Part shown: positions 11,031 through 64,000 of the stretch, in pieces
How the letters are laid out: each line of letters begins with the position of its first letter
Position numbering within the stretch: the first letter of the stretch is position 1
NCBI GenBank assembly: GCA_900314755.1
Contig: OMWH01000001.1
Location: 62,001-126,000 of the forward strand
Direction: 5' to 3'
DNA from: an uncultured Prevotellaceae bacterium
Lineage (GTDB): Bacteria > Bacteroidota > Bacteroidia > Bacteroidales > Bacteroidaceae
Length of the DNA stretch: 64,000 nt
Program-made: the position numbers and the translations under genes
Notes under the pieces: generated by a model
The model's input: only the letters and a program-made list of their open reading frames with translations
Database searches by the model: none
What the model was told of the DNA's origin: nothing

Positions 11031-11162
11031 TTATTCCGATACCTGGAACGAGTGTTCCCGGTACCTGGGAATGGTTGTTCCAATATCTGGGAGTGGTTGT
11101 TCCAGATATTGGGATACTGGAAAGGGGATATTGGGAACAGGGTAAGGGAGGTATTGGAATAA
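11031..11162. repeat. tandem array of six degenerate 22-bp dyad units (array A)
   Basis: The mraZ-glsA gap (10812-11259) contains six consecutive 22-bp units starting at 11031, 11053, 11075, 11097, 11119 and 11141. Most units keep a central dyad of the form TTCC-n-TAyCTGGGAA; the best is TTCCCggtaccTGGGAA at about 11055-11071. Units diverge towards the right end. No plausible protein is encoded. The array shares its 22-bp period and dyad layout with arrays at 25185, 46289 and 63145 although the sequences differ. Confidence 0.85.
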
Positions 11163-24929: not shown

Positions 24930-25090
24930 GGTGACGGTGACGGTTACAGTTTAGTGAAATCGTACTGAAAAGGTTGACTATAACTTTTACTATATATAAT
25001 ATATATATTATATATAGTAATATAAATATACATGTTTTATTCGCATTTTGGGATTCTCATTTTTGGAAAACTGTAACCGTCACCGTCACC
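24930..25090. repeat. 23-bp perfect inverted repeat enclosing a 34-bp AT palindrome
   Basis: The left arm 24930-24952 and the right arm 25068-25090 are perfect complements over 23 bases (core GTGACGGTGACGGTTACAG). Nearly centred between them, 24987-25020 is a perfect 34-bp palindrome made only of A, T and two each of C and G at its ends (TTAC...GTAA). A 17-codon frame (24901-24954) reads into the left arm and ends VVTVTVTV; it is unlikely to be a gene. The element sits in a 690-bp gap. Confidence 0.85.
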
Positions 25091-25134
25091 GTTTTTATTG
25101 TGCACGTTTTCGTACACGTTTGGGACAGGAACTC

Positions 25135-25165
25135 TTGACATCGCATGTTAAATGTTGTACCTTCG
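25135..25165 (+). promoter_or_regulatory. promoter TTG-N20-TACCTTCG
   Basis: TTG at 25135-25137 and TACCTTCG at 25158-25165 are 20 bases apart, the usual Bacteroidota spacing; the -7 box differs from TAnnTTTG at one base. The predicted transcript starts near 25172 and would carry the three hairpin units and the small frame at 25305. Confidence 0.5.
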
Positions 25166-25184
25166 CATTGTCAACGGAAGGAAG

Positions 25185-25243
25185 TCAGTTACCGACTGAA
25201 GGACGCTCAGTTACCGACTGAAGGGTGCTCAGTTACCGACTGA
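25185..25243 (+). repeat. three tandem 22-bp units with TCAGT-n5-ACTGA dyads (array B)
   Basis: TCAGTTACCGACTGA occurs at 25185-25199, 25207-25221 and 25229-25243, each 22 bases apart. Each can form a 5-bp hairpin with loop TACCG. The spacers AAGGACGC and AAGGGTGC are similar. The array lies in the leader of the predicted 25172-25449 transcript. Confidence 0.85.
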
Positions 25244-25304
25244 TTCCAGCGACAGTGCGCACAACCAATTAACCCAATTAACAAACCCTTAAACACAAAA
25301 CATT

Positions 25305-25394
25305 ATGGCAGTAAACAATCCGCAATTCCAGATCAATGTTCGTAAGAACCTGAACCTCCGTTCCACCACCTTAGGGGTAACTTCGTGCATGTAA
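25305..25394 (+). pseudogene. 29-codon remnant ending like a smalltalk protein
   Basis: A frame of 29 codons starts MAVNNPQFQINVRKN and ends TTLGVTSCM. The last nine residues match what I recall as the C-terminus of the tiny Bacteroidales 'smalltalk' proteins (usually about 30 residues, ending ATTLGVTSC), which normally follow a gene for an HU-like DNA-binding protein. The first part does not look like a smalltalk N-terminus and could be the start of the upstream HU-like gene. The likely history is a deletion fusing two neighbouring genes. Promoter and terminator are both still present. The name is from memory and needs a database search. Confidence 0.4.
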
Positions 25395-34213: not shown

Positions 34214-37200
34214 ATGATAAGGTATAAGACGTTGAGACTGAAAGATACGATAATAAGCTTGTTGGTGTTGCTGTTGATGGTGATTAGCGGTCAATGGTCA
34301 ACAGTCAATGCGCAGATAAAGATTGGCGGTAATGTCTATGGTGGCGGTAATGCTGGCAACACAGGCGGTAGTACCACCGTCACCGTCCGTGAAGGCAATT
34401 TGAACAGTGTCTATGGCGGTGCCCGTATGGCGAATATCGCTGGATCAGCCTTCGTCAATATCGATGGCGAGAATACGCCTTCTACTTCCTATATATTAAT
34501 AAATAATGTATATGGTGGTAATGATATAGCTGGAAAGATTGGTAATATCAAGACTGTTTCAGGTGAAGATGCTCCGTTGCCCACTGCCTTGACAAAGGTT
34601 GGAACAACAGCGGGACTGAATAACATTGACAATACATGGAATGCCTTCGTACGCGTCAGTTCAGTAAAAAGCGAAACGACGGGTGAAGCTCCTAATCAAA
34701 CAACAACGACTACCAACCATAAGGTGTATATAGGTAATCTCTATGGCGGTAGTAACGGTGACTATACGGTTAAGAATAAAACTGTCAGTGATTCTCATAA
34801 GTGGGAAATATGGACAAAAGATGCTACTCCTGTTAAGGTCTATGAGAATGATGACCAACCGCAATTGCCTGAGCTTGCCAAGACCTACCTTGAGATTGTC
34901 GGTGGCTCTATCGTCTATGTCTTCGGTGGCGGTAACAATGCCACAGTGACAAACAAGACGGTAATCTGTACGGATAACCCCAGTGAGGTGGTGAACCATA
35001 TCAAGATCGACAAAACCACAGGTACTCTTGTGGCTAATGATGCAACGGGCAACAACATTGAAGAACTATTGTCTGACGACCGTATCATAGAGATGGGCTT
35101 CAATCCATATCTGAGTTATGCCACCAGCGCATCCTACCAGATGGGTAGTATGTTTGGCGGTAACAACAAGGTGGCAATGGCCATACGTCCTACATGGAAC
35201 CTGATAAAGGGTAAGATACGTAACCTCTACAGCGGTGGTAACGCTGGAAACATGACCTTTTATGACGAGAACGGCTATGGCGGTATATTGCTTACCATTG
35301 CAAGCGACGATATGGAGATAGACAATGTCTATGGCGGTTGCCGTAAGGCTGATGTCAATCCGGAAGGTAAACCCATTAAGGCAGAGACTATCAATGGCAT
35401 CTCTTATCCAGAGGGTTATGCTGCCCGTGTGAATATCTCCGGTGGTAATATCAACAATGTCTATGGCGGTAACGATATCTCCGGCAATGTCCATGGAGGT
35501 AGTGCCGTAGGTATTCATAGCAATATCAACCAGAATGTATATGGTGGTGGTAACGGTTCATATGCCTATACTGACAATGCAGCCTTGGCTGGTTCGGTGG
35601 AATGGGGTGATTTCTACTATCCTATAGCCGATGGTGCCGATGGAGCAGCATCAGCTACCGCACTCAACAACTTCCGCCCCAATGCTGAATCGGTATCTAT
35701 CCGCGTCAGTGGGACACAAGAAGAGCCTGTCGTCATCGGCGGTGCTATCTATTGCGGTGGTAACAGTGCTACGCTGAAAGCTGAAGGAAATGCCAATGCA
35801 CGAGCAGAGTTGAAGATCGGCTCCTATGTCTATGCCGACAACGTGTTCTTGGGTAATAACGGTGAGAACATGGTGAAGGAAAGCATATTGAGTACCTATG
35901 CAGGAAACGTGACCGTATCAGAAAAGGAAGGTAGCTTTGACTTCAGCAAGATGGACCTGACTAAGACAGCGCAGATGGATAAATATATGGACGGTGCTGC
36001 CATGGCTATCCGTCCGCAGGTAGTGTTCGACCCAGATTATGTCGACTATTCCACATTCATCGGTTCCCTCTTCGTCGGTGGTAACGTAGGTAGTCTGAAG
36101 CTAGATGGCAAGATTGAAGTCAGCTTCAACGAGAAACTGGTTATCTTCGACAAGGTAGTAGGTGGTTGTAACAATGCCAATGTGCCGGAGATATTCGATT
36201 CAGAAGATGCTACAAAGAAACTCTGTGCAGCCTATGAGGGTGGCGTGTTGAACTTAGTGGAACCTGCACAAAATGCTACTCCTACCGATAAACTGGTACT
36301 GAACTTCGGCGGTTTGAAGATACAACCGATGCGCTGGGCCGTTCAGAGAGATGCTGATTATAATAAGATATTAGATGAAAACGGTAATGAGCAGTATGAT
36401 CTCAAAAATGGTAACCGCTATTTGGAGTGGAACACCGTGAAGTGGGATGCCACTAAATTGGCAGAAGTTGAGGTCGCTCCCGTGACCACAGGTATTCCAG
36501 CCTGGATAGACCCTGCTGATCATGACAAGGGTAATACCTCCGCTGACGACAAGGCCCGTCGTCTCACCGGTGGTAACGTTTATGGCGGATGTTATAACAG
36601 TGGTCTTGTAGATGGTAATGTAGTCATCAACCTCAACGCCAACCTCGTGGAGCGCGATGAACTCTTCGACGAAGTTCTGACAGATAACCTCGGTGAGGAA
36701 GTAAGCCTTTATGGCGGTGACCTGCTTCATAGAGGCAACTATACTATCACCGAGCGCCGCACTGGCGTCATCCTTGGCGAACAGGGTATGGACGTACTTG
36801 GTAAGTCACTTACCGTCTTCGGTGGAGGCTATGGTGCTGACTCTGAGATATGGGGTAGTACCACTGTCAACCTCAACCGAGGCTATACCTTCCAGATCTT
36901 CGGCGGTGGCTATGGCGGTCCTATCGGTAGGTCGGTAACGGGTGGTACAGCCGATGATTACTCTTTCAATGGGAAATATTTCCGTCAGAACGCCCTATAT
37001 AGCTGTCATGTCAACCTGAAAGGAACGAAAGCCGGTGTGACCAAGCAGACCGACAGTAGTGAGGACATGGCAGAGTGTGAGTTTATGTACGGTGGCGGCT
37101 TTTTCGGTCCTATCTGCGGTAATACCATCGTCAACCTGGGTAAGGGACGAGTGTTTAACACCTTCGCAGGTTCTTGTAATGCTGACATCCTCGGACATAC

Positions 37201-40200
37201 CGAGACCTATGTCGGTCGTCAGGTGAAGGCTGATAATAGCGACGACGGTGAAGGCTTCCCCTATATCCGTGATATCATCTATGGTGGTAATGACCTCGGT
37301 GGACGTATCCTCGGTACGAAAGACTTCAAGGACCGTGTGAAAGACGGTACGATGGGTATGATATATAAGAACAACGGTACCACAGCCAATGTTCTGACGG
37401 CATCGGCCTACGTAGAGTACTTGCAGGGTCGTGCCGACGGTATCTTCGGTGGGTGCTTCGGTACTTACGACTATACGGACCGTTATTATAAGGAATACAC
37501 TAATGCCGATGGTACTGCCAAGGATGGTTTCACCAAGCCCCGTATGGTATCTACCTTCGTTAACTTCCGCCCATCTAGTACAGATGACTTGAGACGTAAC
37601 ACATATAACCGTGTACTGAAGGTGTATGGTGCCGGTCAGGGTTATCCAAGCGACAGCGACCGTGACATCATGCAACAGCGAAGCTATGTCCTGGTGGATA
37701 TTCCTAAGGACATGACTAATTATCAGGACATGGAGGTGTTCGGCGCCGGTGCTTGGAGCGGACTGGGTATGGAGACAGTAGTGGAAACGTCTACTGCTAC
37801 TGACTATGCCCAGAAAGCCGACGAGGTATCGGCTGTCATTGACCTGGTGCGTGGAACTATCAGCGCAGCTTATGGTGGTAGTCTGACGGAGGGTATCACC
37901 CGTCGTACTATGGTCAACGTACCTGCCGGTTCAGAGATTGTAACCAAGAACATCTTCGGAGGTGCCTACGGTATCGACAACAACCAAGTGTGCGATGTCT
38001 TTGAAGCTAATGTGGAGTATCATAGTGACAAAGCCCGCGTCTCTGGCTCGCTCTATGGCGGTAACAACCAGGCACGTCGTACGCTATACGGTTTCCTGAA
38101 TATCGACAAACCCGTATATACCGGTGAGAAGTCGTACGACAACAAGTTGAAGACTACCATAGTCTATGGTGCTGGTAAGGGTGGTGACACATGGTCGCAA
38201 TATACTGAAGTAAACCTGTTCAGTGGTGCTGAGGTGAAAGAGGTGTATGGCGGCGGTGATGCCGGACGCGTGGCCAATGAGGCTACCAGCAAAAAGAGAA
38301 CTGCAGAATACGGAGATACTGAAGGCAATAACCTCAAGATGGGCGCTTATGAGATTAATGGTCTCAACGACCCACTCGTCAAGGCTACGGCACTCGGCGG
38401 CAAATACAATACCAATGTCCATATCCATGAGGGCGCTATCGTCAATATGTACCGTATGATTAGTGACAAGAATGAGTTCTACAACGACGGTGGCTATGCC
38501 TACGGAGGTGGTAAGGGTGATGCCTCGGTTGCTAACAGTGGTGATGTGAACGGTACTACCTATATCGACCTGCTTGGCGGTACGGTGAAGAAGGATATCT
38601 ATGCTGCCGGTACGGTGGGATCCGTGAAGGATGAGTATGGTACTGCTCTTGCTGAGGCCGACCGCTTCATAGCCAGTGCCAATGTCTTCATCAAGGGTGG
38701 AACAGCACGTAACGTCTATGGCGGTGGCTGGCGAGGCAGTGTGGGTAAGCATACGCCTAATCCTGATAATCCGTCTGACCTTATCGGCGGCGCCATCACT
38801 AACGATATCCTTGGCGAGACCAATGTGGTCATCGGTACCCGCGACGGTACCAGCTTTACCAATGGTATTCCAGCCATCGAGCGTAATGCCTACGGTGGCG
38901 GTGAAGGTGGACCTGTCTATGGTACGGCTCATGTGACATTCTATAACGGATATATCGGTTACGTCTATAATGCTAACGGTACTAACATCGGTGGTACAGA
39001 GATTGACGAGCGCTATGAGGAGAAGATCCACGACGAAACAGCAGCCGACAATGCTGACGGATCGCTCAACGACAACCTGAAAGACAGTGGATGCCTCTTT
39101 GGCGGCGGTTATATCGACAATAGTAGTGTGGATATTACCGATGTCAAGATGTATGGCGGTTTTGTGCGTAACTGTCTCTTTGGCGGTGGTGAGATTGCTG
39201 CCATCGGACGTGGCGACACGAAGGAAGAAGGTAAGAAGCGTACGCTGAACAAGATATGGAAGGCTGGTGAGACGAAGGTACAACTCTTCGACGGTCTTGT
39301 GGGACACCATGTGTTCGGTGGCGGTCGTGGTTACGACAACCTCTCACGCAAGGGTTCTCTCTATACCGACGGTTATGTGTTTGGTAAGACAGAGGTAGAT
39401 ATCCACGGCGGTGAGGTTGGTACAGTCGAGGGTGTAGCTCAGGGCTACGGTAATGTGTTTGGTGGCGGTGACGTAGGTTTTGTGTATGGTGGTTTCATGG
39501 ACAACGATGGCCTGGTGGTAGGTATCAAGGACGGTGAGCGCTATGACAACACATGGGAAGGCTACTACTACCAATATAGAATAGGAAACAACACTTATAC
39601 CCCAGGTGACACGCCTGCGGCAACCGATGGGGGATGGATAAAGCAAGACGGTGAATTCGTGCTCACCGAGGACTGTAAGGTACTGATCGAGCCTTGGTGC
39701 CGTGTGACGGCAGGAAGTGTCACTATCAACGGCACAACCTATACCAAGGACCAATACGTTCCTATCGATGTCCTCAATACCATGACGGCCAAGAGAAGTA
39801 ATAGTACAGGCGTTGGTGCCGATTCGCGCTGGAGTTCTCTCGATGACGACGGTATTATCATCCATAACGCTGTGTTTGCCGGTGGTAATGTTACTGAAGG
39901 TTCTGATAAGACATACGCTGAGGCAACTACCGTGTTCGGTAATGCTACAGCCTCCATCCACGATGTTTACCATCGTGACTTGATCACTATCGGCACTGGT
40001 CATACGGGTGGTCTTTATGGTGATGGTAATCTTACCTTCGTGGACGGCTACCGTGGACTGAACATCACTAACTACGGTACTGACTACTACAACATCGACA
40101 TGGAGATTAGCTTTACCGACTATGAGAATCTGCCGGAACGTGAACAGGCCTACTATGAGTTGAGATATAAGTGCATGAAGGAATGTACCGACAATGCTGG

Positions 40201-43200
40201 CAAGACCTATCATCCCGAAAACGGTAACATCAAAGCCTCATCCATCACTGCCGACGAGCTGATAGCCCTGTTTGAAGGTATTAATCAGGAAGATGGAAAG
40301 CCGATGGTTGGAGCTGATGGTAAGCCCACCTCTACAACCTACTGGGTGGAGAACGGCGTCTGTTCGCGCTATGCAGGACGTATCATGAATACCATCCAGC
40401 GTGCTGACTTCTGTGGTGTCTTCGGCTCACGTATGGTGATGCAGGGTGCCCAGGACCGTGTGCTCGACCGAGCCAATAATACCAACTATACCATCAACCG
40501 TGTCCGTGAGGTGTCACTGAACAAAAAGATTTCCACAGCAAGTGATGCTGGAAAATATCACGGCAACTATTTCGGTATCTATAGCGTGGTGAACCATCTC
40601 GGTGCATTGACCAGTGATGTGGACTTCTATAGCTCCGTGCGCACTACTGACAATTCAGACAAGAATACCTATGGACCAGACAGCGACGTTCAGACGTTTG
40701 CACAATGGAAAGGAGCTCATAAGACCGAGCGCAAGCGCAACAACGGTAACAGTCATAACGAGGTGGCTTTGGCATCAGGTGTTTACCTAGAGCTGACTAC
40801 CGAGAAGAGTACCGGTACTGATGTAAACCAGAAGGACTGGGGTTATATCACCGGTGTCATCGAACTCGACCTGATTAATGTGCAGGCTGGTGTCGGTGGT
40901 GGATTCGTATATGCAAAGAATGTGCATGGAAAAGCGACTTACGCTCGTCAGAAACATGTCACGCTGACAGAGCTGAATGCAGGTGCTGTCACACGACGCG
41001 ACTACACCTATTCAGAGACCGACAATGATAAGAAGGAGTGGGAGACCTCTGGTAACTTCGTGCATAGCACTCAGACCATTATCGATGACTGCTACCCACA
41101 GAGCAACCGCTACAAGGGTACTGATGCTGTAAAAGCCCACTATTGGTATATCAAGGGACAGGTGTATGTCTATAACCAGAATATTTCTGCCTATACTGGT
41201 GCTTCGAATGCCTATAGTGAGGTGGTAGAGATTCCATTGACCATCACGGCAGCATCACATGGTACGATGAAACTCCTCGACGTACGGCCCAACAAGTATG
41301 CTTACTATTCGTCGTTCTCAGGTACTACAGGCAATAAACTCACTGATAAGGATAAGTTGGAGATTGGCGATAATGTCTATTACCTCAACGATCCTATCAG
41401 CTATTGGGACTGGTATATGCTCAGTCCTGCGGAACGACGTCTGTTCGTTGACGAAACTTACGTTACCATCGCAGAATGTAGGATAGAAGGAGAGACTTAT
41501 CCTGAGGGTACGGTATTGTTGCCTGAGGATTGTAAGACCTTACGTGATTCGGCTCCTAAGAAAGAGATTGACGGAAAAATGGTGCCAACGGTAATCAACG
41601 TAAAACAGAATACTGATGCTACCTTCGACTATGTATTCCGTCCGTCTAATAACATGAGTCACGAGACGGGTTATATCCTCACCTACGATGTCAACAATCC
41701 AAGGATATGGAATAAGTGGTATACACCGGAAAAGACAACGACCGATGTAAGGACGGATAAGATTGACTCTAAAGAATATTCTGAGCTTTCGAAGGCCGAT
41801 CAAGAAAAATACAACAACGGTCCTACCTATCGTCCTACATCCAACGGTTTCTATGGTCAGCAGGCCTACAAGGTATCGAACATCATTCCTAAGGCTGTCC
41901 ACGACACCTACCAGGCGGCTACCGCTGCCCATCCGGGGAGTGTTGATCCAGAGAAGCAAGCCAGCTTCGAGGCTGCCTATATCGTGACCAGTGAGATAGA
42001 GACCACTAATAAGAGCGGTACTAAGCAGCATCTCTATCCTGGTGCTCCGTTGGCTAAGTCAGACTATAACGATGCTGAGTGGGTTGCCATGACAGGTAGC
42101 GTTGCTGATGCTTATGTCTGCAGCAGTACTATTAAGTTGGATGATGGTGAATATATCTATGTGTCGACTCTGATGACGAAGGCAGAGCGAGACCAGTACA
42201 TTAGTGAATATGACAATCTGAAGACCGATTTGGAGGCCAGCATCACACCGGCATACTATTGTACGAAGGCTGGCGACTATGGTGGCAACTACTACGAGAC
42301 AACGAAGAACTACCGTGGTTTAGTTGCCTGGAGTTCGCTGTCACCTGAAGACCGCGAGCACTTCGAGTTCAACTACGATGCCCTCGACCTGCTCATCGAC
42401 TCCAAGTACGGTAAGCGTACCGATGGAACGCAGCAACCTGAGGGTCAGAAGTACCAGTATGATGGCTTTGATGACTACGACGAAGATAAGAAGGAACAGT
42501 TTATCTACTCGTCCACACAGCCCGTAGACTATTCTGCTACCTATAACGGTGCAAACTTCGATTACAATGATGGTGGTGAAACAAAGACAATCGTAACAGG
42601 TCAAGAGATTGATCGTGAGATATATGAGTCGCTACCTAACGAGCGTCGTCACTACACATCAATCAGCGTTGACCATGCAGGCAAATACTATGTTGTCAAC
42701 ACTGCGTTCCAGCGTGGTGAGACACCTTATTCTGTAGGTCAGACCATTGACGAGAGTACATACAACGTGATGGGTGATAACCAAAGTAAGATAACCGTTC
42801 TTGAATTCTATGAAAGCGAGGCAGGTCAGACCTATTACTATTGTCGTGACAGCTATCAGATTGGTGAACACGGTGAGGGTTATAAGGTTATTAGTGTCAA
42901 GGGTACTGGTAGCGGAACGACCTATACAGAAGGACAGACCGTACCGCAGGGTGCCGTTATCAACAACGATAACTATGGACATCTGGTCAACCATCAGCAG
43001 AATTTCACCATCCATGGTGTTGCACCTACGGAGTATAGCACGCTCTACGTGTCGCAAAACTCAGATATTTACGACCTCTCGCAGGAGAAGATCATCACCG
43101 TTATCTATCAGTACGACTATGTTGAAAGCGATGAGTTGGGTCTGCATATCACCCCTGTCAGTGAGCGTCACGTGGTGAACATCCATGTGAAGTTCGAGAG

Positions 43201-46200
43201 TGGTGTTCCTGAGGTGGAGAATATCAATACACCGAAGATAGTACTCCCTGGTACTTCTGTCAGCATGAGTACACCTCACGTCACTCCAGGTGCTTACCAG
43301 ATCATCGGTGGTGGATGGGAGTTGTTCGAGAAGTTGTCTGACGTTGAGAGTCACATCAACGGTAAAGAGTACATACCTAACACCGATCCTCTCTACTGGT
43401 ATCAGGATGGCTTCTATTTGGCATACTATGCTAAGACCTATCTGGGTAAGACCTATAGTAATGCAGTCAATGTGAGTGTGGCTAACTACCACGACCTGGC
43501 TGATATCCTGAGCGACCAGAACAAGACTCACCATATGTATGTCGATAATCCAAATGTGAAGCGCGACAGTAAGGTCTATATCAATGACGGCGAGAACGGC
43601 CTGACCCATCTGAAGAACTTCTTCGACCTGAGTGTGGTCAGCGAGACAGCCGAGACCGATGACAACGGTCTCATCAAGACAGGTACCTTCGCAGGTCATG
43701 CTCCGCTCAATGGTTATGTCAAGGGAGGACAGAACCTCGACTTCTTCCTCCGCACCGACATCACGCAAAGCGGTACCTCTGCTTGGGAGCCTATCGCCGG
43801 TGGAACCACCGACCCATGCTTCAGCGGTACCCTTCACGGTGACGGTCACCATATCAGTGGTCTGGCGAAGTCGCTATTCGGTAAACTCTGTGGTAATGTC
43901 TTTAACCTCGGTGTCAGCGGCTCGTTTACTACGGCAGGTATCGCCGACACAGGTGACGGCTTCATAGAGAACTGCTGGATCAACACCACAGCGACAAGCG
44001 GGTTCGCCGCTAACCAGAAACCGTTCATCGGCAATCCTACGGGAGACGCTAACTGTACACAGATTGTCAACTGCTACTATCCTGAGGGTAAGGGCTATAC
44101 CGCAGTTAACGGTACACGAGCCATGCCAGAGAAGGCCTTCTACGACGGTGAGGTGGCCTACAACCTGAATGGCTTCTATCTGGCTAAGCGCTACTATGAC
44201 GGTACCAACCTCAGTACGGGTAAGCAGTATAGTTATCTGAAGAAGAACGCTGACGGTACGGTGGCTGAGGAACTGAGTAAGGCTTACTATCCCGAGGCAT
44301 ACGCCTACTATCCTCTCGAGGGAGAAAACACAAAACTGTTCGGCTATGTGGAGAACCGTTACTCCGACGGTGACTTCATCTATGCCGGTGGTACTATCCC
44401 TGAGGGTGATAACGTACGTCGCCATGAGGAGGAGAAAGATGGTATCACCGTTGTTTCATATAATCCTATCTGGCCCGATGACTATATTTTCTTCGGTCAG
44501 ACGCTGAACTATGGCTATGGTGCCGCTACCGATCCTGCACATGACAATGTGCCGACGGCTGTCAATACTACCAATCGCGTCTTCCGTGCGCCGGCCTACT
44601 TCCGTAGCAAGGTGGTTAATGTGGCTCACTTCAATAGCAATGCCGTCTTTGCACAGACTATGAAGGATGATGAAACGAAGGAGGCTTATAAGAATATGAC
44701 TGCCATCGACTTCACTGGATATAATGATGGCAGCTATCAGCAAGGGTGGCAAACAGTGTCTGGCGGTTCCAACGCAGAAAAGCAGTTCTTCTATCTGCCT
44801 CTCCTCGACGACGACGGTCTTACCGGCTTCAGGAATGTCAACCTGACAAAGAACCTGTTGGCCTATACTTTCGCCGCCGGTGGAACAGGTGACAACGAGA
44901 CTGCTACGGCAACGCAGAAGACAGCCAACGCGGTAAGTGAGGCATTATTTGACTATGACTTTGAGGAGATGGATGATGATGCCACTGCAATACCACCGGT
45001 GAAGGCAGATTACCGTGCCGTAGATGAATGGGATAGATGGGCTAACGAGTCACAGATGCAGGGTCACTGGGTACAGTTGACAGGTGACGAGTATGTGGCT
45101 CAGCGCGACCACCTGCTTGTCGACAAGCATGACTTCAACGCTCCTATCAGTTATAAGTTTGCTGACGACAAGCGTATGTGGTACCAGCGTACTCCAGAAA
45201 ACTTCGTCGACACGTCGAAGGGATGGGATGTTGTCAGCCTGCCATTCACTGCCGAACTCGTCACTACCCATCAGAAGGGTGAGATAACTCACTTCTACAG
45301 CGGCAGTATCGAGGTGGATGATAATCATACGAAGGTGGGTCATGAATACTGGCTCCGTGAATTCAACGAAGGTGCCCAAGAGGGTGATAAATTCAAGGCT
45401 ACCTTCAACTATCCTACGTCAGGTGCTAATGACGATTATAAGAACGTCACCAATACCTTCCTCTGGGATTACTACTATGAGGCTGCCAATGGGCATAATC
45501 ATAAGGATAATAATCTGGATACCTACCAGACATACTATCAGAAGGAGCGTAGTCTTCCTGCCTATCCGTTCCTGGCTGGCGGTACTCCATATATTATAGG
45601 CTTCCCAGGTACGACATATTATGAGTTTGACCTCAGTGGAGAGTGGAAAGCTAAGAACACCAATGGTGCTTCACCTGCAAAACTGTCTAAGCAGGTTATC
45701 ACCTTTGCTTCTGTGGAAGGTGATGTCATCAACGTCAGCGATGACGAGGCAGATGTCACTAAAAAAGGCTACACCTTCAAGCCCAATTACCTGAACCAGA
45801 CGCTGAATACTGGTTATCTGATGAACACCGACGGCGATGCCTTTAAGAAAGTGCCAGATGGACAAACGGGTAATGCCGTCGCCTTCCGTCCGTACTTCAA
45901 GAAGGTAGAGACATCAGGTTCCCGTCAGGCTGCCCGTGCCATCCTCTTCGATGGAGAAGGCTCATCGTTCGCTATCGGTGATGACCGTGACCCATCTGAG
46001 GAGGAGATAGGTGGTGGTCTGCAGTTCTTCACCAAGCGTCGTGTGATTGGAGTCACCTCTACGCTCCGTGAGGCTGCCGATGTCCGCATCTACAGCACGA
46101 CAGGTAACACCATCGCTGCCTTCACCGTCCTGCCGGGTGAGACCATCGAGAAGTATGTTCCTATTGCCGGTGTCTATATCATTAATGCTGCCCACGGCCG

Positions 46201-46228
46201 CTATACGAAGAAGATTTCTGTCAAGTAA
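34214..46228 (+). CDS. giant exported YGG-repeat surface protein (4004 residues)
   Basis: A single frame of 4004 codons. Signal peptide about 1-33 (SLLVLLLMVISGQWSTVNA). From residue 35 to about 1930 the protein is made of repeats around (N/H)VYGGGN/VFGGGD, each followed by a strand such as TVTVREGN, probably a beta-solenoid. Around residues 1960-2950 a different repeat appears with a core like IDREIYESLPNERRHY. Residues about 3140-3290 resemble a GLUG-type beta-helix (GTLHGDGHHISGLAKSLFG). The end VRIYSTTGNTIAAFTVLPGE...GVYIIN resembles a type IX sorting domain. Probable cell-surface adhesin or filament. It follows fimbrial locus 1 after 20 bases and may share its transcript. Confidence 0.85.
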   Translation: MIRYKTLRLKDTIISLLVLLLMVISGQWSTVNAQIKIGGNVYGGGNAGNTGGSTTVTVREGNLNSVYGGARMANIAGSAFVNIDGENTPSTSYILINNVYGGNDIAGKIGNIKTVSGEDAPLPTALTKVGTTAGLNNIDNTWNAFVRVSSVKSETTGEAPNQTTTTTNHKVYIGNLYGGSNGDYTVKNKTVSDSHKWEIWTKDATPVKVYENDDQPQLPELAKTYLEIVGGSIVYVFGGGNNATVTNKTVICTDNPSEVVNHIKIDKTTGTLVANDATGNNIEELLSDDRIIEMGFNPYLSYATSASYQMGSMFGGNNKVAMAIRPTWNLIKGKIRNLYSGGNAGNMTFYDENGYGGILLTIASDDMEIDNVYGGCRKADVNPEGKPIKAETINGISYPEGYAARVNISGGNINNVYGGNDISGNVHGGSAVGIHSNINQNVYGGGNGSYAYTDNAALAGSVEWGDFYYPIADGADGAASATALNNFRPNAESVSIRVSGTQEEPVVIGGAIYCGGNSATLKAEGNANARAELKIGSYVYADNVFLGNNGENMVKESILSTYAGNVTVSEKEGSFDFSKMDLTKTAQMDKYMDGAAMAIRPQVVFDPDYVDYSTFIGSLFVGGNVGSLKLDGKIEVSFNEKLVIFDKVVGGCNNANVPEIFDSEDATKKLCAAYEGGVLNLVEPAQNATPTDKLVLNFGGLKIQPMRWAVQRDADYNKILDENGNEQYDLKNGNRYLEWNTVKWDATKLAEVEVAPVTTGIPAWIDPADHDKGNTSADDKARRLTGGNVYGGCYNSGLVDGNVVINLNANLVERDELFDEVLTDNLGEEVSLYGGDLLHRGNYTITERRTGVILGEQGMDVLGKSLTVFGGGYGADSEIWGSTTVNLNRGYTFQIFGGGYGGPIGRSVTGGTADDYSFNGKYFRQNALYSCHVNLKGTKAGVTKQTDSSEDMAECEFMYGGGFFGPICGNTIVNLGKGRVFNTFAGSCNADILGHTETYVGRQVKADNSDDGEGFPYIRDIIYGGNDLGGRILGTKDFKDRVKDGTMGMIYKNNGTTANVLTASAYVEYLQGRADGIFGGCFGTYDYTDRYYKEYTNADGTAKDGFTKPRMVSTFVNFRPSSTDDLRRNTYNRVLKVYGAGQGYPSDSDRDIMQQRSYVLVDIPKDMTNYQDMEVFGAGAWSGLGMETVVETSTATDYAQKADEVSAVIDLVRGTISAAYGGSLTEGITRRTMVNVPAGSEIVTKNIFGGAYGIDNNQVCDVFEANVEYHSDKARVSGSLYGGNNQARRTLYGFLNIDKPVYTGEKSYDNKLKTTIVYGAGKGGDTWSQYTEVNLFSGAEVKEVYGGGDAGRVANEATSKKRTAEYGDTEGNNLKMGAYEINGLNDPLVKATALGGKYNTNVHIHEGAIVNMYRMISDKNEFYNDGGYAYGGGKGDASVANSGDVNGTTYIDLLGGTVKKDIYAAGTVGSVKDEYGTALAEADRFIASANVFIKGGTARNVYGGGWRGSVGKHTPNPDNPSDLIGGAITNDILGETNVVIGTRDGTSFTNGIPAIERNAYGGGEGGPVYGTAHVTFYNGYIGYVYNANGTNIGGTEIDERYEEKIHDETAADNADGSLNDNLKDSGCLFGGGYIDNSSVDITDVKMYGGFVRNCLFGGGEIAAIGRGDTKEEGKKRTLNKIWKAGETKVQLFDGLVGHHVFGGGRGYDNLSRKGSLYTDGYVFGKTEVDIHGGEVGTVEGVAQGYGNVFGGGDVGFVYGGFMDNDGLVVGIKDGERYDNTWEGYYYQYRIGNNTYTPGDTPAATDGGWIKQDGEFVLTEDCKVLIEPWCRVTAGSVTINGTTYTKDQYVPIDVLNTMTAKRSNSTGVGADSRWSSLDDDGIIIHNAVFAGGNVTEGSDKTYAEATTVFGNATASIHDVYHRDLITIGTGHTGGLYGDGNLTFVDGYRGLNITNYGTDYYNIDMEISFTDYENLPEREQAYYELRYKCMKECTDNAGKTYHPENGNIKASSITADELIALFEGINQEDGKPMVGADGKPTSTTYWVENGVCSRYAGRIMNTIQRADFCGVFGSRMVMQGAQDRVLDRANNTNYTINRVREVSLNKKISTASDAGKYHGNYFGIYSVVNHLGALTSDVDFYSSVRTTDNSDKNTYGPDSDVQTFAQWKGAHKTERKRNNGNSHNEVALASGVYLELTTEKSTGTDVNQKDWGYITGVIELDLINVQAGVGGGFVYAKNVHGKATYARQKHVTLTELNAGAVTRRDYTYSETDNDKKEWETSGNFVHSTQTIIDDCYPQSNRYKGTDAVKAHYWYIKGQVYVYNQNISAYTGASNAYSEVVEIPLTITAASHGTMKLLDVRPNKYAYYSSFSGTTGNKLTDKDKLEIGDNVYYLNDPISYWDWYMLSPAERRLFVDETYVTIAECRIEGETYPEGTVLLPEDCKTLRDSAPKKEIDGKMVPTVINVKQNTDATFDYVFRPSNNMSHETGYILTYDVNNPRIWNKWYTPEKTTTDVRTDKIDSKEYSELSKADQEKYNNGPTYRPTSNGFYGQQAYKVSNIIPKAVHDTYQAATAAHPGSVDPEKQASFEAAYIVTSEIETTNKSGTKQHLYPGAPLAKSDYNDAEWVAMTGSVADAYVCSSTIKLDDGEYIYVSTLMTKAERDQYISEYDNLKTDLEASITPAYYCTKAGDYGGNYYETTKNYRGLVAWSSLSPEDREHFEFNYDALDLLIDSKYGKRTDGTQQPEGQKYQYDGFDDYDEDKKEQFIYSSTQPVDYSATYNGANFDYNDGGETKTIVTGQEIDREIYESLPNERRHYTSISVDHAGKYYVVNTAFQRGETPYSVGQTIDESTYNVMGDNQSKITVLEFYESEAGQTYYYCRDSYQIGEHGEGYKVISVKGTGSGTTYTEGQTVPQGAVINNDNYGHLVNHQQNFTIHGVAPTEYSTLYVSQNSDIYDLSQEKIITVIYQYDYVESDELGLHITPVSERHVVNIHVKFESGVPEVENINTPKIVLPGTSVSMSTPHVTPGAYQIIGGGWELFEKLSDVESHINGKEYIPNTDPLYWYQDGFYLAYYAKTYLGKTYSNAVNVSVANYHDLADILSDQNKTHHMYVDNPNVKRDSKVYINDGENGLTHLKNFFDLSVVSETAETDDNGLIKTGTFAGHAPLNGYVKGGQNLDFFLRTDITQSGTSAWEPIAGGTTDPCFSGTLHGDGHHISGLAKSLFGKLCGNVFNLGVSGSFTTAGIADTGDGFIENCWINTTATSGFAANQKPFIGNPTGDANCTQIVNCYYPEGKGYTAVNGTRAMPEKAFYDGEVAYNLNGFYLAKRYYDGTNLSTGKQYSYLKKNADGTVAEELSKAYYPEAYAYYPLEGENTKLFGYVENRYSDGDFIYAGGTIPEGDNVRRHEEEKDGITVVSYNPIWPDDYIFFGQTLNYGYGAATDPAHDNVPTAVNTTNRVFRAPAYFRSKVVNVAHFNSNAVFAQTMKDDETKEAYKNMTAIDFTGYNDGSYQQGWQTVSGGSNAEKQFFYLPLLDDDGLTGFRNVNLTKNLLAYTFAAGGTGDNETATATQKTANAVSEALFDYDFEEMDDDATAIPPVKADYRAVDEWDRWANESQMQGHWVQLTGDEYVAQRDHLLVDKHDFNAPISYKFADDKRMWYQRTPENFVDTSKGWDVVSLPFTAELVTTHQKGEITHFYSGSIEVDDNHTKVGHEYWLREFNEGAQEGDKFKATFNYPTSGANDDYKNVTNTFLWDYYYEAANGHNHKDNNLDTYQTYYQKERSLPAYPFLAGGTPYIIGFPGTTYYEFDLSGEWKAKNTNGASPAKLSKQVITFASVEGDVINVSDDEADVTKKGYTFKPNYLNQTLNTGYLMNTDGDAFKKVPDGQTGNAVAFRPYFKKVETSGSRQAARAILFDGEGSSFAIGDDRDPSEEEIGGGLQFFTKRRVIGVTSTLREAADVRIYSTTGNTIAAFTVLPGETIEKYVPIAGVYIINAAHGRYTKKISVK

Positions 46229-46245: not shown

Positions 46246-48921
46246 ATGAGAAACGAGATAACAAGTTATAGAGATGCGTCCCAAGAATCGTCCCACCGTT
46301 TGAGACGAGTCGTCCCATGCCTTGGGACGCATCGTCCCATGCCTTGGGACACATCGTCCCATGCTTTGGGACGCATCGTTCCCATGCTCCTTCTCCTCTT
46401 CATGCTCGTTTCAGGTAGTACGAAAGTGTGGGGCCAGACGGACTATTCGGGAATCTACTATATCGGCAGTGGCGGTAATGCTGCTTCAGTCAGCAATAAG
46501 AGTACGGCGGAGGCTTATTCTTACAATGTCGGGTCACCTAATACAAACTACTACTTAGTGCCGACAAATGAGAGTGAGCCTGCTACACTAGCCAATAAAT
46601 CTGATGTCTATCACGATGAGACAGGAGCACAGGAACCCTTCCTGACGACCTACAAGATTGGTCATGACAATGAGGCTGTATGGGTGTTGAAGCAGGTGAC
46701 GGATGACGATGGCACCTTCTATTACGTCATACATGCCAAAACAAACAAATATGTAGTCTATGATCCTTACTTTTCTGGCAACAACTACCGAAGGAAATGT
46801 ATGCACTTGCAGGCAATGGTTTCACCGACAGAAAATGCTAAATTCGTAGTCAGTGAAAGGGATGGCGCATATTGTTTTATACCGAAAGAGTTTAAAGATA
46901 TTACCCCTAATAATTCTAACACTTACATATTTTGGAACATTGCTGATAAAAACCGTAACAGCAGAAAAGGCCTTGATGCTTCCAATTATTGGGGCGGTTT
47001 GGTGGGATTGTATTGTTTAGCGTCGAACAGCACAGTGTTGGATGCCAACTCGAAATGGAAGTTCGAGTCTGGCCTCCTTGATGCCCCGACAATTAGTGAC
47101 GTCGATCCTGCGACAAATAAAGTAACTGTCACTGGTCCCGATTGGTTGCCAACTGGATACAAAATCCGCTATACGATATCTACAGATGGTAACGCACCAG
47201 CAGACCCAGATGCTTCCAGTATTATATTGGAAAATCCTTCTAGTGATGGTTTTGAAGTCAGTGAGACTTGCATTATCAAAGCTGTAGTTGAGCGTTATGG
47301 TGTGGTTCTTTCAGAAGTGGCAACAAGTGGTACGCTTGTGCCTTCCCGTTGTGCGACTCCAGCATTCACCTATTCTACAGAAACGGGAAAGGTGACGATT
47401 ACTTCTGGGACTGATGGTGCCTCTATTTACTATACGCTTGACGAAACAACGCCAACGTCAGGTAATACACTATATGAAGGACCATTCGAAATAGCAAATC
47501 TTACTACAGTGAAGGCGATTGCTGTCAAGACGGGAATACTGGATTCGGAAGTAGCATCGGTAAAGCTTGTCTTGAATCCAATAGTTACCCTTGCCGAAAA
47601 TGAATGTACCTATGATGGTTCTGCCAAAGAGCCTACGGTGAGTAGCGTCAAAGATGGTGAAACCATAATATCTCCTGATGAATATAATGTCAGCTACGGC
47701 AATAACTTCAATGTAGGCGATGCCGCCATTGTTACAATTAGAGACAAGGCAGGAGGTGATTATATCGTATACGGTTCTACGACGTTTACTATTAATCCAA
47801 AGGCTGTAACTATCACTGCCAACGATGCTTCGAAAATGTATGATGGCACTGCGCTGACTGACGGTGGTTTCACTACCACCGCATTAGAAACGGGTGACAC
47901 ACATACTTTCATCGTTGTCATGACAGCAGAAAGTACCATCACCAATGTGGGAACCCAACCTAATGTAATTGCCTCGGTGGATGGCATTGCAGTGACTACA
48001 GGGACAGAAACGGCGGTAGGTAACTATTTAGTGACCACTGCGAATGGTACGCTGAAAGTTACTCCCAAGAGCATCGGCGATGGCAACAGGCCTGCAGATG
48101 ATATTACCATAGAGCTGGCTGCTGATGGCACGTTGAGTGCTGTCAAGCAAGGCGATAGGACATTGGTGGAGGATACTGACTATACCTATACGACAGAGGA
48201 TTTTGGTGAAGATAAAGTCTTTATCATTACGGGTATGGGCAACTATACAGGCTCTGCCAAAGGTATTTATGCATGTCCTAAGTTTACTGATCCTGACGGC
48301 ACAACAGGTTTATCAAAGGCTGCCGCAGTCTATATGGCATTACGAGACTATGCAAAGCCTGCCGGCATCACTCCGTATATTGTCAGGAAAGTCAATCCGT
48401 CGATAGGAACAATGGTTATCAGCGAAATCGCATATATCCCAGAGGGCGTACCCGTACTGCTGCTGTCTGATACGGAAGTGTCAGGCTTTACGGTTTCTCC
48501 TAAGGACGAGGCTGTTCCTGAGATATCAGCAGGGACAAAGAACAGCAACCAACTGAAAGTAGCCCCGGAAGAAGGTGTAGCCGTGGAGGCTGCACAGGTC
48601 TATATGTTCTACAAAGGTGAATTTGTGCTCACGAAGAAAGGAACACTGACGGAAGGGAAGTTCTATCTCTATAATCCGAACTATGCGGCGGTACCTGATG
48701 GACAAGGAAGCGCAAATGGATCACGAGGCAGCTTGCAGATTGTCATAGAAGATTGGGATGACTCGGAAGAGCCGACAGGGATGATCTCTACCACCCCTGA
48801 CCCCTCCTTCCAGCAGGAGGGGAGTTGGTACACACTGGATGGTAGATGTCTTAGTGGTGAGCCGACGAAGAGCGGAATCTATATCCGTAAAGGACAAAAG
48901 GTGTATATAAAAAAGAAATAA
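46246..48921 (+). CDS. exported multidomain protein with CHB_HEX_C and MBG-like domains
   Basis: Up to 891 residues. The hydrophobic signal MLLLLFMLVSGSTKVWG begins at residue 47, after a 46-residue stretch encoded by 22-bp repeats; a start at 46384 (845 residues) or 46339 is possible. The mature N-terminus (DYSGIYYIGSGGNA) looks like a carbohydrate- or RICIN-type trefoil region. A CHB_HEX_C-like domain (TSGTDGASIYYTLDETTPTS, about residues 390-430) and an MBG/YDG-type Ig-like domain (ITANDASKMYDGTALTDGGF, about 520-610) follow. The C-terminus SWYTLDGRCLSGEPTKSGIY resembles a sorting tail. It lies 17 bases after the giant gene. Confidence 0.75.
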   Translation: MRNEITSYRDASQESSHRLRRVVPCLGTHRPMPWDTSSHALGRIVPMLLLLFMLVSGSTKVWGQTDYSGIYYIGSGGNAASVSNKSTAEAYSYNVGSPNTNYYLVPTNESEPATLANKSDVYHDETGAQEPFLTTYKIGHDNEAVWVLKQVTDDDGTFYYVIHAKTNKYVVYDPYFSGNNYRRKCMHLQAMVSPTENAKFVVSERDGAYCFIPKEFKDITPNNSNTYIFWNIADKNRNSRKGLDASNYWGGLVGLYCLASNSTVLDANSKWKFESGLLDAPTISDVDPATNKVTVTGPDWLPTGYKIRYTISTDGNAPADPDASSIILENPSSDGFEVSETCIIKAVVERYGVVLSEVATSGTLVPSRCATPAFTYSTETGKVTITSGTDGASIYYTLDETTPTSGNTLYEGPFEIANLTTVKAIAVKTGILDSEVASVKLVLNPIVTLAENECTYDGSAKEPTVSSVKDGETIISPDEYNVSYGNNFNVGDAAIVTIRDKAGGDYIVYGSTTFTINPKAVTITANDASKMYDGTALTDGGFTTTALETGDTHTFIVVMTAESTITNVGTQPNVIASVDGIAVTTGTETAVGNYLVTTANGTLKVTPKSIGDGNRPADDITIELAADGTLSAVKQGDRTLVEDTDYTYTTEDFGEDKVFIITGMGNYTGSAKGIYACPKFTDPDGTTGLSKAAAVYMALRDYAKPAGITPYIVRKVNPSIGTMVISEIAYIPEGVPVLLLSDTEVSGFTVSPKDEAVPEISAGTKNSNQLKVAPEEGVAVEAAQVYMFYKGEFVLTKKGTLTEGKFYLYNPNYAAVPDGQGSANGSRGSLQIVIEDWDDSEEPTGMISTTPDPSFQQEGSWYTLDGRCLSGEPTKSGIYIRKGQKVYIKKK
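46289..46390. repeat. four 22-bp dyad units inside the 5' end of a gene (array C)
   Basis: Units start at 46289, 46311, 46333 and 46355, with a partial fifth (CGTTCCCATG) after 46377. The dyad is CGTCCCA-n5-TGGGACG. Because 22 is not a multiple of three, each copy is read in a different frame, giving VPCLGTHR, MPWDTSSHALG and so on. This argues that the array is a DNA element, not a protein repeat. Confidence 0.85.
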
Positions 48922-61233: not shown

Positions 61234-63087
61234 ATGACGATGATGAAGAAAATAAGACTGACATACACCTTCCTGCTGGCTGCGGCACTCTCGATGCTGA
61301 CGGCATGCTCCAGTGACGATGCGGCACAGGATGGGGGTGAGAAGGAAACAACGACATTGGAGGAAGGGCTCTCTGAAGTCCGTATCCATCTCTCGGTGGC
61401 TGCACCCTCGGGTCCGAGCATGCAGATGCGTGCATATTCTGACGATGCTGCGGTGACAGAGGAGATGATGAATCTCTGGACCGTCGTAGCTGTTAATTCC
61501 ACAACTCATAAGGTGGCATTCGTTCATGCTGCCAAGCCAGCATCTGCAGAGCGTGAGATAGACGACCTCGTGAAGTTGGAGAATGGAACCTATGATTTCT
61601 ATTCATTTGCTAATATCCCTCCATCCGTCGTTTGTCAATTGCTAGGTATTGACGGCTATGGCAAAGGAGATCAGGTGATGCGTGATGGTAATGATGGTGG
61701 TAATGACCCTACGAGTGGTAATGAAGATGTGGGAGAACAAGGAGATCCCATCACACGCTATGATGCCTCTAACGACCCCTTTATGTCAGAAGCGGGGACG
61801 ACAGTAGATAATAATGTGTATAATATCACGTTCACAGAAGGAGAAGAAGTCACTGGCGCAGAAAATATAGAAGTAGGTATCGATGGTAACGGTTTTGACA
61901 TCACTGCGACGAATGTCTTCGGTGCTACAGGTATCCCCATGAGTAATGTGCAGACTGGTGTGACAATTGATGGTACGAAAGATGTTAACTTGATTGTTGT
62001 CCGTATGTTTGCAAAGGTGGAAGTTCGACTGTTTAACACTACGGGGAGTGATATCACTGTCAAGTCGGCGACACTCTCTGATGTGACTCTTAACTACAAT
62101 AATAATATCAAGCTGTTGCCCAATATCACATCTTATGAGGATGATATGGCAGCCCACCATATGGATATTCAGCCTAAGTTAGGCACAAGCTATTGGACTG
62201 GTGACTATACCAAGACACCGGCTTCTGCTGTAGTAGTGCCAGCTAATACGGAATATAGTGTGTCATCCACAGCCTATAAGACTATATCCTTCTTTATTAA
62301 TGAGAGTACCATACCAACCAACTCCTATGGGCATTTCTTCCTGACCCTTGAGATAGACAAGGGTGGCGGTACCTCTGAATATCGTTATGCGCTGATAGAG
62401 GAGGATGCCACGCCTAATGAGTGGAACTACATCGCACGTAACGACTATCGTATCATTCCTGTCGTGCTGGATGACTATGTGCTCGACATCATTCCTTACG
62501 ACTTCCCCGCTATCGGTGTCTATCCTGCCTCTGTAAAAGAGGAGGATGGTCTCTATACCATCAATTTTCATGACTATGGACATTTCCATCTGCAGCCTGT
62601 CGTGAAGAAGATGAGCACAGGTGATGCTATCAATTATTGGGATGGAACAGGTTCTACTCCTGCTACGGACTATTGGACGTTGGACACTGATTGGGCAACC
62701 TCATGGAAAACGTACGATAAGTATGGCGGAACAGCGAGTGCTAATCCGGGTAACTTCTACCGTAACGAGACAGCAACGGCTGATGCTGATGAGGCTGGAG
62801 GTGTTCCTGTATGGTATGTAAACGATGGTGTAGCAGGTCCTCAGTGGGATCCCGCAGGCGGTAGCACTCCAAACTATCAGCCGTTTATCTTCGGCTATAT
62901 TGCAGACCCCGGTGCGACATTGCCAACGGACAAGAAAGTATATCATGAGTTCACCATCCAGTTGCATAAGGCAGGAGGTGTTACTCGTCAGATGAAGGCA
63001 CGCATCTATATGATTCTCGATAAAGACCAGATGATGTACAGCCGTATGTTCGGTGCACCCCGTGTGCGCCATACCCATGGCTATTGA
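61234..63087 (+). CDS. Mfa-type pilin-like lipoprotein (possible tip subunit)
   Basis: A 617-residue precursor: lipobox SMLTAC (Cys25), strand SEVRIHLSVAAPS, then QMRAYSDDA with Arg66 as potential cleavage site, and MMNLWTVVAVNSTTHKVAF. A Gly/Asn/Asp-rich loop (about 150-180, MRDGNDGGNDPTSGNEDVGE) is unusual. Last gene of the locus, where tip subunits often lie in mfa-type operons; that placement is inference. Starts 6 bases after the previous gene; ATG at 61243 is an alternative start. Confidence 0.72.
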   Translation: MTMMKKIRLTYTFLLAAALSMLTACSSDDAAQDGGEKETTTLEEGLSEVRIHLSVAAPSGPSMQMRAYSDDAAVTEEMMNLWTVVAVNSTTHKVAFVHAAKPASAEREIDDLVKLENGTYDFYSFANIPPSVVCQLLGIDGYGKGDQVMRDGNDGGNDPTSGNEDVGEQGDPITRYDASNDPFMSEAGTTVDNNVYNITFTEGEEVTGAENIEVGIDGNGFDITATNVFGATGIPMSNVQTGVTIDGTKDVNLIVVRMFAKVEVRLFNTTGSDITVKSATLSDVTLNYNNNIKLLPNITSYEDDMAAHHMDIQPKLGTSYWTGDYTKTPASAVVVPANTEYSVSSTAYKTISFFINESTIPTNSYGHFFLTLEIDKGGGTSEYRYALIEEDATPNEWNYIARNDYRIIPVVLDDYVLDIIPYDFPAIGVYPASVKEEDGLYTINFHDYGHFHLQPVVKKMSTGDAINYWDGTGSTPATDYWTLDTDWATSWKTYDKYGGTASANPGNFYRNETATADADEAGGVPVWYVNDGVAGPQWDPAGGSTPNYQPFIFGYIADPGATLPTDKKVYHEFTIQLHKAGGVTRQMKARIYMILDKDQMMYSRMFGAPRVRHTHGY

Positions 63088-63144
63088 TAGCTATGGAACA
63101 GCCTTAAGGGCAAAGCGTTCTTCGACTTATTGATACACAATCCA

Positions 63145-63276
63145 GTTATTCCCACGTAGGGAACGATGCATTCCCACGTAGGGAACGATGCATTCCCATG
63201 GTGGGAATCCTACATTCCCATGGTGGGAATCCTGCATTCCCATGGTGGGAATCCTGTTCCCGCTCCCATAGGAGAC
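63145..63276. repeat. five 22-bp dyad units plus a degenerate sixth (array D)
   Basis: Units start at 63145, 63167, 63189, 63211 and 63233. The first two carry TTCCC-acgta-GGGAA; the last three carry ATTCCCA-tgg-TGGGAAT, a perfect 7-bp dyad. From 63255 a degenerate copy (TGTTCCCGCTCCCATAGGAG) follows. The gap between fimbrial locus 2 and the next gene (63088-63445) has no other recognisable feature apart from GGGAGGAG-rich stretches and a CTGGAT...ATCCAG hairpin at about 63420-63438. Confidence 0.9.
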
Positions 63277-63445
63277 ACCCTCCATTGACGGTTATACTTC
63301 ACAGAGAGGAGCAGAAAGGGAGTAGTTAGAGCAACTCCTCCCGTCGTGAAACACCCTGTACATCGGCATTTCAGGAGAAAAAGGGAGGAGGGGAGTAGTT
63401 TTTGTGAAAAAACTTTTTTCTGGATGGTGTATATCCAGCACTACG

Positions 63446-64000
63446 ATGAGTATTAACATAAAACGACATATAATGATGAAACAGTCTGTAGATTTGATGA
63501 ACTCAATGAAACTGATGAATTCAAGACATAGTAATACAACCACCACCACGACGAGCCTCGCCCGCCGTGCCCTCCTCCTGTTGTCCCTGTTTGTGATGAG
63601 TGTGGGGAGTGCGTGGGGAGATACAGAAGTTGACTTACAAACGACTCCTTTGACTGCATGGAATAACAATAATATCAATGGTAGCAAGTTTGGTGAGTTT
63701 GCATCAGGAAATTTTATTCGATTGTATATGGCTGCCAATGAAGATGCAATAGAAATAGCGACTTTAGGAACATATAAAGGATTATATAATAATAATAATA
63801 CCATAGCAGCCGGTACTTTAAGTTTAACAGATGGCTATCTTGAGTTTGAGGTGACTGATAATGCTCTTGTTTCTGACATGAAACAATATGGCATATATAT
63901 AAATCCTAAGGGAAATACCATAACTAAAGTTGTGTATGTAAAAAAGGAAGCAGACACTTTCCTTGGCTCTGAAGCATCAGGTGCTACATCAGAAAGTGGT
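63446..64000 (+). CDS. exported surface protein, 5' part only
   Basis: An open frame runs off the window. In-frame ATGs at 63446, 63473 and 63476 are all possible; none has a clear Shine-Dalgarno. A long polar n-region with six Thr in a row precedes SLARRALLLLSLFVMSVGSAWG, a clear signal peptide. The mature part (DTEVDLQTTPLTAWNNNN) looks beta-rich. I do not recognise the family. The long n-region followed by a late hydrophobic core is like that of the 46246 gene, so this may be another member of the giant exported-protein set. Confidence 0.7.
   Translation, partial: MSINIKRHIMMKQSVDLMNSMKLMNSRHSNTTTTTTSLARRALLLLSLFVMSVGSAWGDTEVDLQTTPLTAWNNNNINGSKFGEFASGNFIRLYMAANEDAIEIATLGTYKGLYNNNNTIAAGTLSLTDGYLEFEVTDNALVSDMKQYGIYINPKGNTITKVVYVKKEADTFLGSEASGATSESG

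Follow-up and report, generated by a model that had tools for sequence, protein, structure and literature searches.

Tandem 22-bp dyad arrays with genome-specific arms in Prevotellaceae, possible binding sites for a dimeric protein

Introduction

What is being kept in a tandem repeat whose period and symmetry recur within a genome while its letters do not? The question is raised by array D, which lies near the end of a 64,000-nucleotide stretch of contig OMWH01000001.1 (the window) from an uncultured Prevotellaceae bacterium. A reading of the window made from the sequence alone (the sequence-only reading) described array D as one of four tandem arrays that share a 22-bp period and a dyad in every unit but differ in sequence. 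A search of the open-access literature found, among the papers listed and judged by title and the start of the abstract, none on a family of 22-bp dyad arrays. Here we follow the layout and the arms of these arrays through the source genome, its relatives and one orthologous gene, and weigh what may maintain them. Coordinates are those of the window; the arrays and the gap before array D are listed without a strand.

Results

Array D and the other arrays of the window

Array D (63149..63251) consists of five 22-bp units of the form TTCCC-N5-GGGAA-N7. The left arms start at 63149, 63171, 63193, 63215 and 63237, each followed by five letters and GGGAA, the last arm ends at 63251, and TRF reports a period of 22. 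When the pattern TTCCC-N5-GGGAA-N7-TTCCC was sought in the window with at most two mismatches, all eight matches (four per strand) fell within array D, compared with a mean of 0.08 and a maximum of 1 in 100 dinucleotide-preserving shuffles of the window; the five exact units first described are thus borne out. Upstream, a gap (63088..63148) with TTA immediately before the first TTCCC separates the array from a 617-aa ORF (61234-63087), for which Pfam gives no hit at E 0.001. Downstream, a plus-strand ORF (63446..64000), listed from a GTG at 63404 and with in-frame ATGs at 63446, 63473 and 63476, runs off the window. Its product starts with a leucine-rich, signal-peptide-like segment, as judged by eye, and has no Pfam match in the first 2000 residues from 63446, read past the window.

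Two of the three further arrays have the clean 22-bp layout that had been claimed for all of them. Array B (25177..25243) is built of units TCAGT-N5-ACTGA-N7, and array C (46285..46392) of units with the core TCCCA-N5-TGGGA. Array A (11039..11161), which lies upstream of the ORF 11260-12087, is degenerate, with TTCC/GGAA dyads at steps of 22 and 23 bp, and its period was called 23 bp in the unbiased dyad scan. The four arrays do differ from one another in sequence as claimed, but the arms of array D recur at 14 other places of the genome. The arms of array B mark a second dispersed family of the same genome, being found again at 23 bp (L055) and at 22 bp (L061 and L065).

Several other features adjoin these arrays. 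Array B (seen within 24991-25394) has a TATATA stretch on one side and a remnant-looking 29-aa ORF (25305-25394) on the other, and the TCAGT dyads of L061 again adjoin a TATATA stretch. Array C falls in the 5' portion of an ORF (46246-48921) whose product carries Fn3_assoc and CHB_HEX_C_1 domains (Pfam), and a 4004-aa ORF (34214-46228) lies directly upstream of this host gene. Arrays of a heptamer, AAATGAG or CATTTCT, also occur at eight places of the window: 14988, 15079, 19256, 20450, 22359, 22843, 24036 and 24186.

A dispersed family with fixed arms and free spacers

The source genome (G000; 3.0 Mb, 48 contigs, 94% complete) contains 43 forward matches to TTCCC-N5-GGGAA-N7-TTCCC at 15 places, and none to the pattern read backwards. 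With the spacing left free (periods 16-45), 42 of 47 TTCCC dimers have a period of 22 bp, two of 23, none of 21, one of 44 and two of 45. Allowing three mismatches in the 20 arm letters raises the dimers from 42 to 54 (+12), and a separate, looser pattern at a 21-bp period gives a single forward match. Within the arrays, neighbouring units differ in 2 of 430 arm letters versus 162 of 516 spacer letters, counted over the 58 in-register units of the 15 arrays with the array edges excluded; five out-of-register units (one each in L041, L043 and L045, two in L050) were left out. The layout is therefore strict, and within arrays the arms are near-invariant and the spacers free. Because the arrays were found by exact arms, the invariance across loci is partly a matter of selection; the arms are nevertheless equal at unlinked places while spacers differ within single arrays, and near-misses are few.

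Three of the 15 arrays lie in frame within genes, which encode the 16S rRNA methyltransferase RsmF, a PG_1098-like protein and a GH106 protein (all Pfam-supported), and a fourth overlaps an ORF of 118 aa that has no match in Pfam. Others adjoin the genes of glycerate kinase, prephenate dehydrogenase and cytidylate kinase, with no fixed orientation. Divergent, convergent, same-direction and in-gene settings all occur and yield no regulatory rule of position, and the Pfam matches of the flanking genes have no theme in common apart from two VapE genes. The suggestion that such arrays flank or enter secreted-protein or regulatory regions is thus not upheld. Five arrays (L039, L043, L044, L051 and L052) have about 100-240 bp of flank in common; the remaining ten have no such long common flank, except for the VapE genes beside L041 and L047. 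Dyads with GAAGG arms at 22 bp form another dispersed family (L044 left flank, L052 right flank, L058, L062 and L065), and in two cases they directly adjoin TTCCC arrays.

One period, many arms

The shared period would be chance if tandem dyads at other periods were as frequent, a possibility raised together with the first description. We scanned 464 kb of the source genome (the window and 20 stretches of 20 kb each; no simple-sequence filter) for tandem dyads, with arm and period left free. The scan returned 12 clusters at 22 bp, three at 23, two each at 18, 21 and 39 and one each at six other periods, so that 22 bp dominates, 12 against at most three elsewhere. Nine of the 12 remain when the window is removed. 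When the sequence was shuffled twice within blocks of 200 bp, the two rounds together yielded eight clusters, one of them at 22 bp. Beyond TTCCC, the arms TCAGT, GAAGG and TGTTCCA recur in the scan, and GTCCC and GTAAATC occur once each.

Arm families also differ between genomes. Forward dimers of GTTTC/GAAAC, counted in 22 genomes of the genus, number 122 in G120, 21 in G095, 15 in G063 and 14 in G078; five other genomes have one to three and 13, including the source genome, have none, although a looser pattern finds two GTTTCC-like places in the latter. TCCGC/GCGGA dimers, present in three of the 22 genomes, are frequent in G007 alone; the other two have one to three matches. TTCCC dimers are present in seven of 35 other genomes of the genus and in none of 24 genomes of other families, TTCCC being the arm sought outside the genus. 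Arms are thus common to many loci of one genome and different in other genomes. Families may coexist, as do TTCCC and TCCGC in G007 and TTCCC, TCAGT and GAAGG in the source genome. In several of the G120 arrays (L150-L169), the 7-base spacer flips between CTGCCGA and TCGGCAG in neighbouring units, giving 17-bp inverted repeats.

Dyad axes are kept while arms change at an orthologous site

The in-frame array of the PG_1098-like gene allows one position to be followed across species. The encoded proteins, which we take to be methyltransferases, have a ferredoxin-like and a THUMP-like domain (Pfam). The linker was collected from 80 records, nearly all titled Prevotella or Prevotellaceae, and from 30 further genome loci, with some duplicates; 28 of these 110 loci (20 of the records and eight of the further loci) could not be mapped. 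A 22-bp dyad array is present in 31 of the 80 records, with about ten different arms. The arms met at this site are TTCCC, GTTTC, TGTTCCA, GTTTG, GTTTTC, GTCCG, GTCCT, GTCCC, TCCGC, GTACG and AGAAA. Of the 35 clusters that these records have at 22 bp, 31 fall at this one site and so are not independent. Together with the arm families at 22 bp in the source genome, the site supports the earlier surmise that period and dyad persist and sequence does not.

A looser finder called 39 distinct linker sequences at 22 bp, 38 of them with an odd loop. The dyad axis falls on the identical base in 28 of these 38, at the half-period in six and elsewhere in four. One of the six half-period sequences is that of the sibling (L170), in which the common axis can be made out by eye with one mismatched pair in the first unit. 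Counted at distances 4 to 7 from the common axis in the 28 rows, Watson-Crick pairs make up 85.5% of 448 cells, compared with a shuffle mean of 57.5% (largest 62.3% in 500 shuffles) and with 19-24% for axes shifted by 1-5 bases. The 28 rows were picked for having a dyad array, so this pairing is partly by construction; the weight is carried by the shared axis and the varied arms. Double-sided changes about the axis number 95, against at most 46 in 500 shuffles. The dyad axes are therefore kept at this in-frame site while the arms change on both sides.

On a tree of the rows, arms change at least 18 times among the 38 array rows; both counts of 18 changes are rough, and the arm labels hinge on the finder's choice between two dyad axes. 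The tree (82 rows) was built by a quick method, 30 of its 79 inner branches are poorly supported, and the 20 unmapped records were scored as lacking an array. Relatives without an array have other fillers at the linker, for instance heptamer arrays or one long hairpin. The hairpin is single and in frame in L090, L234 and L237, with arms of about 29 bp by eye. Heptamer arrays, also read by eye, occupy the gene linkers of other species (RsmF in L106, L110 and L117; PG_1098-like in L088, L097 and L098). In the RsmF linker, the 22-bp array was seen by eye only in the source genome and G007 among 30 loci.

Rate and mode of arm change

Among named genomes, the closest sibling is Prevotella sp. UBA2755 (G174), which carries GGTTTCC/GGAAACC-like arms at five places. 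Its PG_1098-like array is 54.7% identical to that of the source genome over 95 bp without a gap, and the flanks are 88.8% and 88.5% identical. A second pair (L185 and L191) is 87.9% identical beside the array and 65.3% within it. Where the arms are the same, the values are 91.6% beside and 84.2% within (L224 and L230) or 90.9% beside and 94.7% within (L189 and L192). In these alignments, arrays with unchanged arms drift more like their own flanks. The comparison covers 20 sequences of equal length, and the 95-bp stretch includes some non-array letters in three-unit arrays. Unit 1 of L173 and unit 1 of L076 have the identical loop AACGT and differ by a matched pair of changes, C to T in one arm and G to A in its partner, which indicates that arms can change stepwise and in pairs. 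L173 is a mixed array in which most dyads, by eye, are self-consistent one by one.

A second place, with the order DUF6078-array-VapE, is conserved in five genomes with different arms: TTCCC in G000, GTTTTC in G078, AGAAA/GTTTTC (weak) in G060, GTCCC in G020 and GGTTCC/GGAAACC (by eye) in G174.

Discussion

We propose that the arrays are clusters of DNA-level dyad sites for a putative dimeric protein whose specificity drifts, and that they are borne on short repeats, which spread as well; we give this explanation about an even chance. Every array would be a short nucleoprotein platform, in which each 22-bp unit offers one dyad (arm-N5-arm', then N7) to a candidate dimeric, sequence-specific protein. 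Neighbouring dyads are two helical turns apart, so that bound dimers would align on one face. The arm letters would change as the specificity of the putative reader drifts, and the arrays would spread as short repeats, tolerated in protein linkers as well as between genes. We infer that the arms are read by a protein; the presence of several arm families in one genome would demand several readers or a loose one, which counts against the proposal, as do the scarcity of such arrays at the RsmF linker and the lack of a regulatory rule in their position. A bolder version, which is possible but rather doubtful, makes the arrays chromosome-wide and centromere-like, with protein and arms co-changing so fast as to differ between sibling species, the 22-bp geometry and even the axes at single sites being kept. 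It would amount to a recognition code turning over within a fixed scaffold.

Dispersed repeats of bacteria are usually recognised by a conserved sequence, and here the geometry is conserved instead. Sequence searches would therefore miss relatives of these arrays and class them as repeats of other kinds. Should a protein indeed read the arms, the arrays would be a natural record of change in a protein-DNA code, with changes at one orthologous site in many species that are matched on the two sides of each dyad. They are also short DNA elements held in frame within a conserved gene of many species.

Known systems resemble the arrays in part. BrickBuilt, a minisatellite-MITE of Porphyromonas gingivalis, has tandem units of 23 nt in 19 copies in one strain, some with a leader and a tail; it has a single degenerate unit, AGAYCATARTATCCTCTCRTRTG, with predicted long stem-loops, and is described as always intergenic (PMC4596501). 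The unit length is nearly equal to the 22 bp found here, and some copies have common flanks; shared flanks occur here in five of the 15 source-genome arrays and in G120 and G174, with no clean insertion ends found. In contrast, no short dyad is visible in AGAYCATARTATCCTCTCRTRTG when the consensus is compared by eye with the 22-bp units and their TTCCC/GGGAA or other arms; the arms here vary by genome, and three of the 15 TTCCC arrays lie within genes. REP, BIME and REPIN sequences with their RAYTs are likewise palindromic units, scattered through a genome and varying from one genome to another (PMC3116915, PMC3686654, PMC3733652). A RAYT/REPIN origin was rejected for the source genome: PF01797 (Y1, IS200-like transposase) has no match in it (94% complete) or in G020, both of which have TTCCC arrays. 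PF01797 is present in eight of 12 genomes, and none of 17 Y1 loci has a 22-bp array. Rickettsia palindromic elements are in-frame palindromic repeats in unrelated metabolic genes, and the arrays too lie in frame within unrelated genes; those elements are set apart by their length of about 150 bp from the 22-bp tandem dyads (PMC10969869). In ParMRC systems, parC arrays vary by family and the cognate ribbon-helix-helix ParR does not bind the sites of others (PMC9426499). On the proposed model, the arrays would share with parC short tandem units, a family-specific sequence and a cognate binding protein. They differ in that parC is plasmid-borne beside parM with direct repeats of varying spacing, whereas the arrays are dispersed on a chromosome-size assembly, dyadic and fixed at 22 bp. 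No ParM or ParR name occurs among the Pfam matches of 20 flanking proteins and three host genes.

Dyad sites in DNA account for the observations better than hairpins in RNA, REP/RAYT elements or slippage alone. Non-autonomous mobile repeats without a host function, MITE and minisatellite in one as in BrickBuilt, would need their arms for a transposase or recombinase and would persist as tolerated insertions. The arrays, or repeats holding them, do get copied: the G120 array is a module of larger mosaic dispersed repeats common to many of the 20 stretches read, two G174 arrays have the array and a tail of about 60 bp in common (by eye), and five source-genome arrays have the flanks described above. 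The source-genome counterpart of one G174 array place is without an array; in this sibling comparison, however, there was no clean empty site or target duplication, and other sequence stands at that place. The other ten source-genome arrays have no long common flank apart from the two VapE genes, passive copies would be expected to lose arms as quickly as spacers, which the arm and spacer counts contradict, and at the PG_1098-like site the kept axis and mostly kept length resemble descent more than repeated insertion. We hold mobility without function to be rather unlikely. Template switching turns imperfect palindromes into perfect ones, and slippage together with such switching could keep arrays symmetric and homogeneous by mutation alone, as the singly self-consistent dyads of L173 might suggest. 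Slippage would homogenise the spacers too, but these differ while the arms hardly do, and the same arms at 15 unlinked places and one period for unrelated arms are left unexplained; mutation as sole cause is very unlikely.

Binding to double-stranded DNA has also to be weighed against a role of the arrays in RNA, as strings of hairpins that affect mRNA stability or translation. As RNA, array D folds better than its shuffles (z -4.63, 0 of 200 shuffles as good), and the arms are self-complementary in every family seen; any DNA dyad, however, folds too. Pairing in RNA would spare G-U only, yet the mismatches in the PG_1098-like gene, where the strand is known, are 21 G-T against 14 A-C at distances 4-7 (p 0.31) and 32 against 28 at distances 4-8. 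These numbers are small, and the absence of a clear wobble bias favours symmetry of double-stranded DNA. The settings of the arrays moreover range over divergent, convergent, same-direction and in-gene, and we regard a function in RNA as improbable. Protein binding had been proposed at the outset by likeness to iterons. The binding part survives as the leading model above. VapE as the reader of the arms was followed up because paralogous VapE genes begin shortly after two of the source-genome arrays. The arrays would then be iteron-like origins read by a VapE/BT4734-like primase-helicase, with dispersed orphan copies. PF08800 has 44 matches, of which 30 loci were read; in nine of these a 22-bp array precedes the domain by no more than about 530 bp, and a tenth (L293) has two units on a turned locus, against a background of 12 arrays in 464 kb. 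Among 12 hand-picked genomes, nine with arrays have two to nine PF08800 genes, and three with none or one array by the patterns searched have zero, one and zero. However, 20 of the 30 loci are without an array, several having 11-bp direct repeats instead (by eye), and on these grounds VapE is kept only as a weak rival. L294 has no array in a subfamily that usually has one, the excess is partly the single conserved place DUF6078-array-VapE, and arrays in protein linkers do not serve a VapE gene. Origins read by VapE are most improbable.

The direct repeats upstream of the VapE/BT4734-like genes in L267-L271 are about 11 bp apart and, by eye, of the TATGTAG, TATGTCAG and GGTAGAG types. They are iteron-like, and their spacing is half of the 22-bp period.
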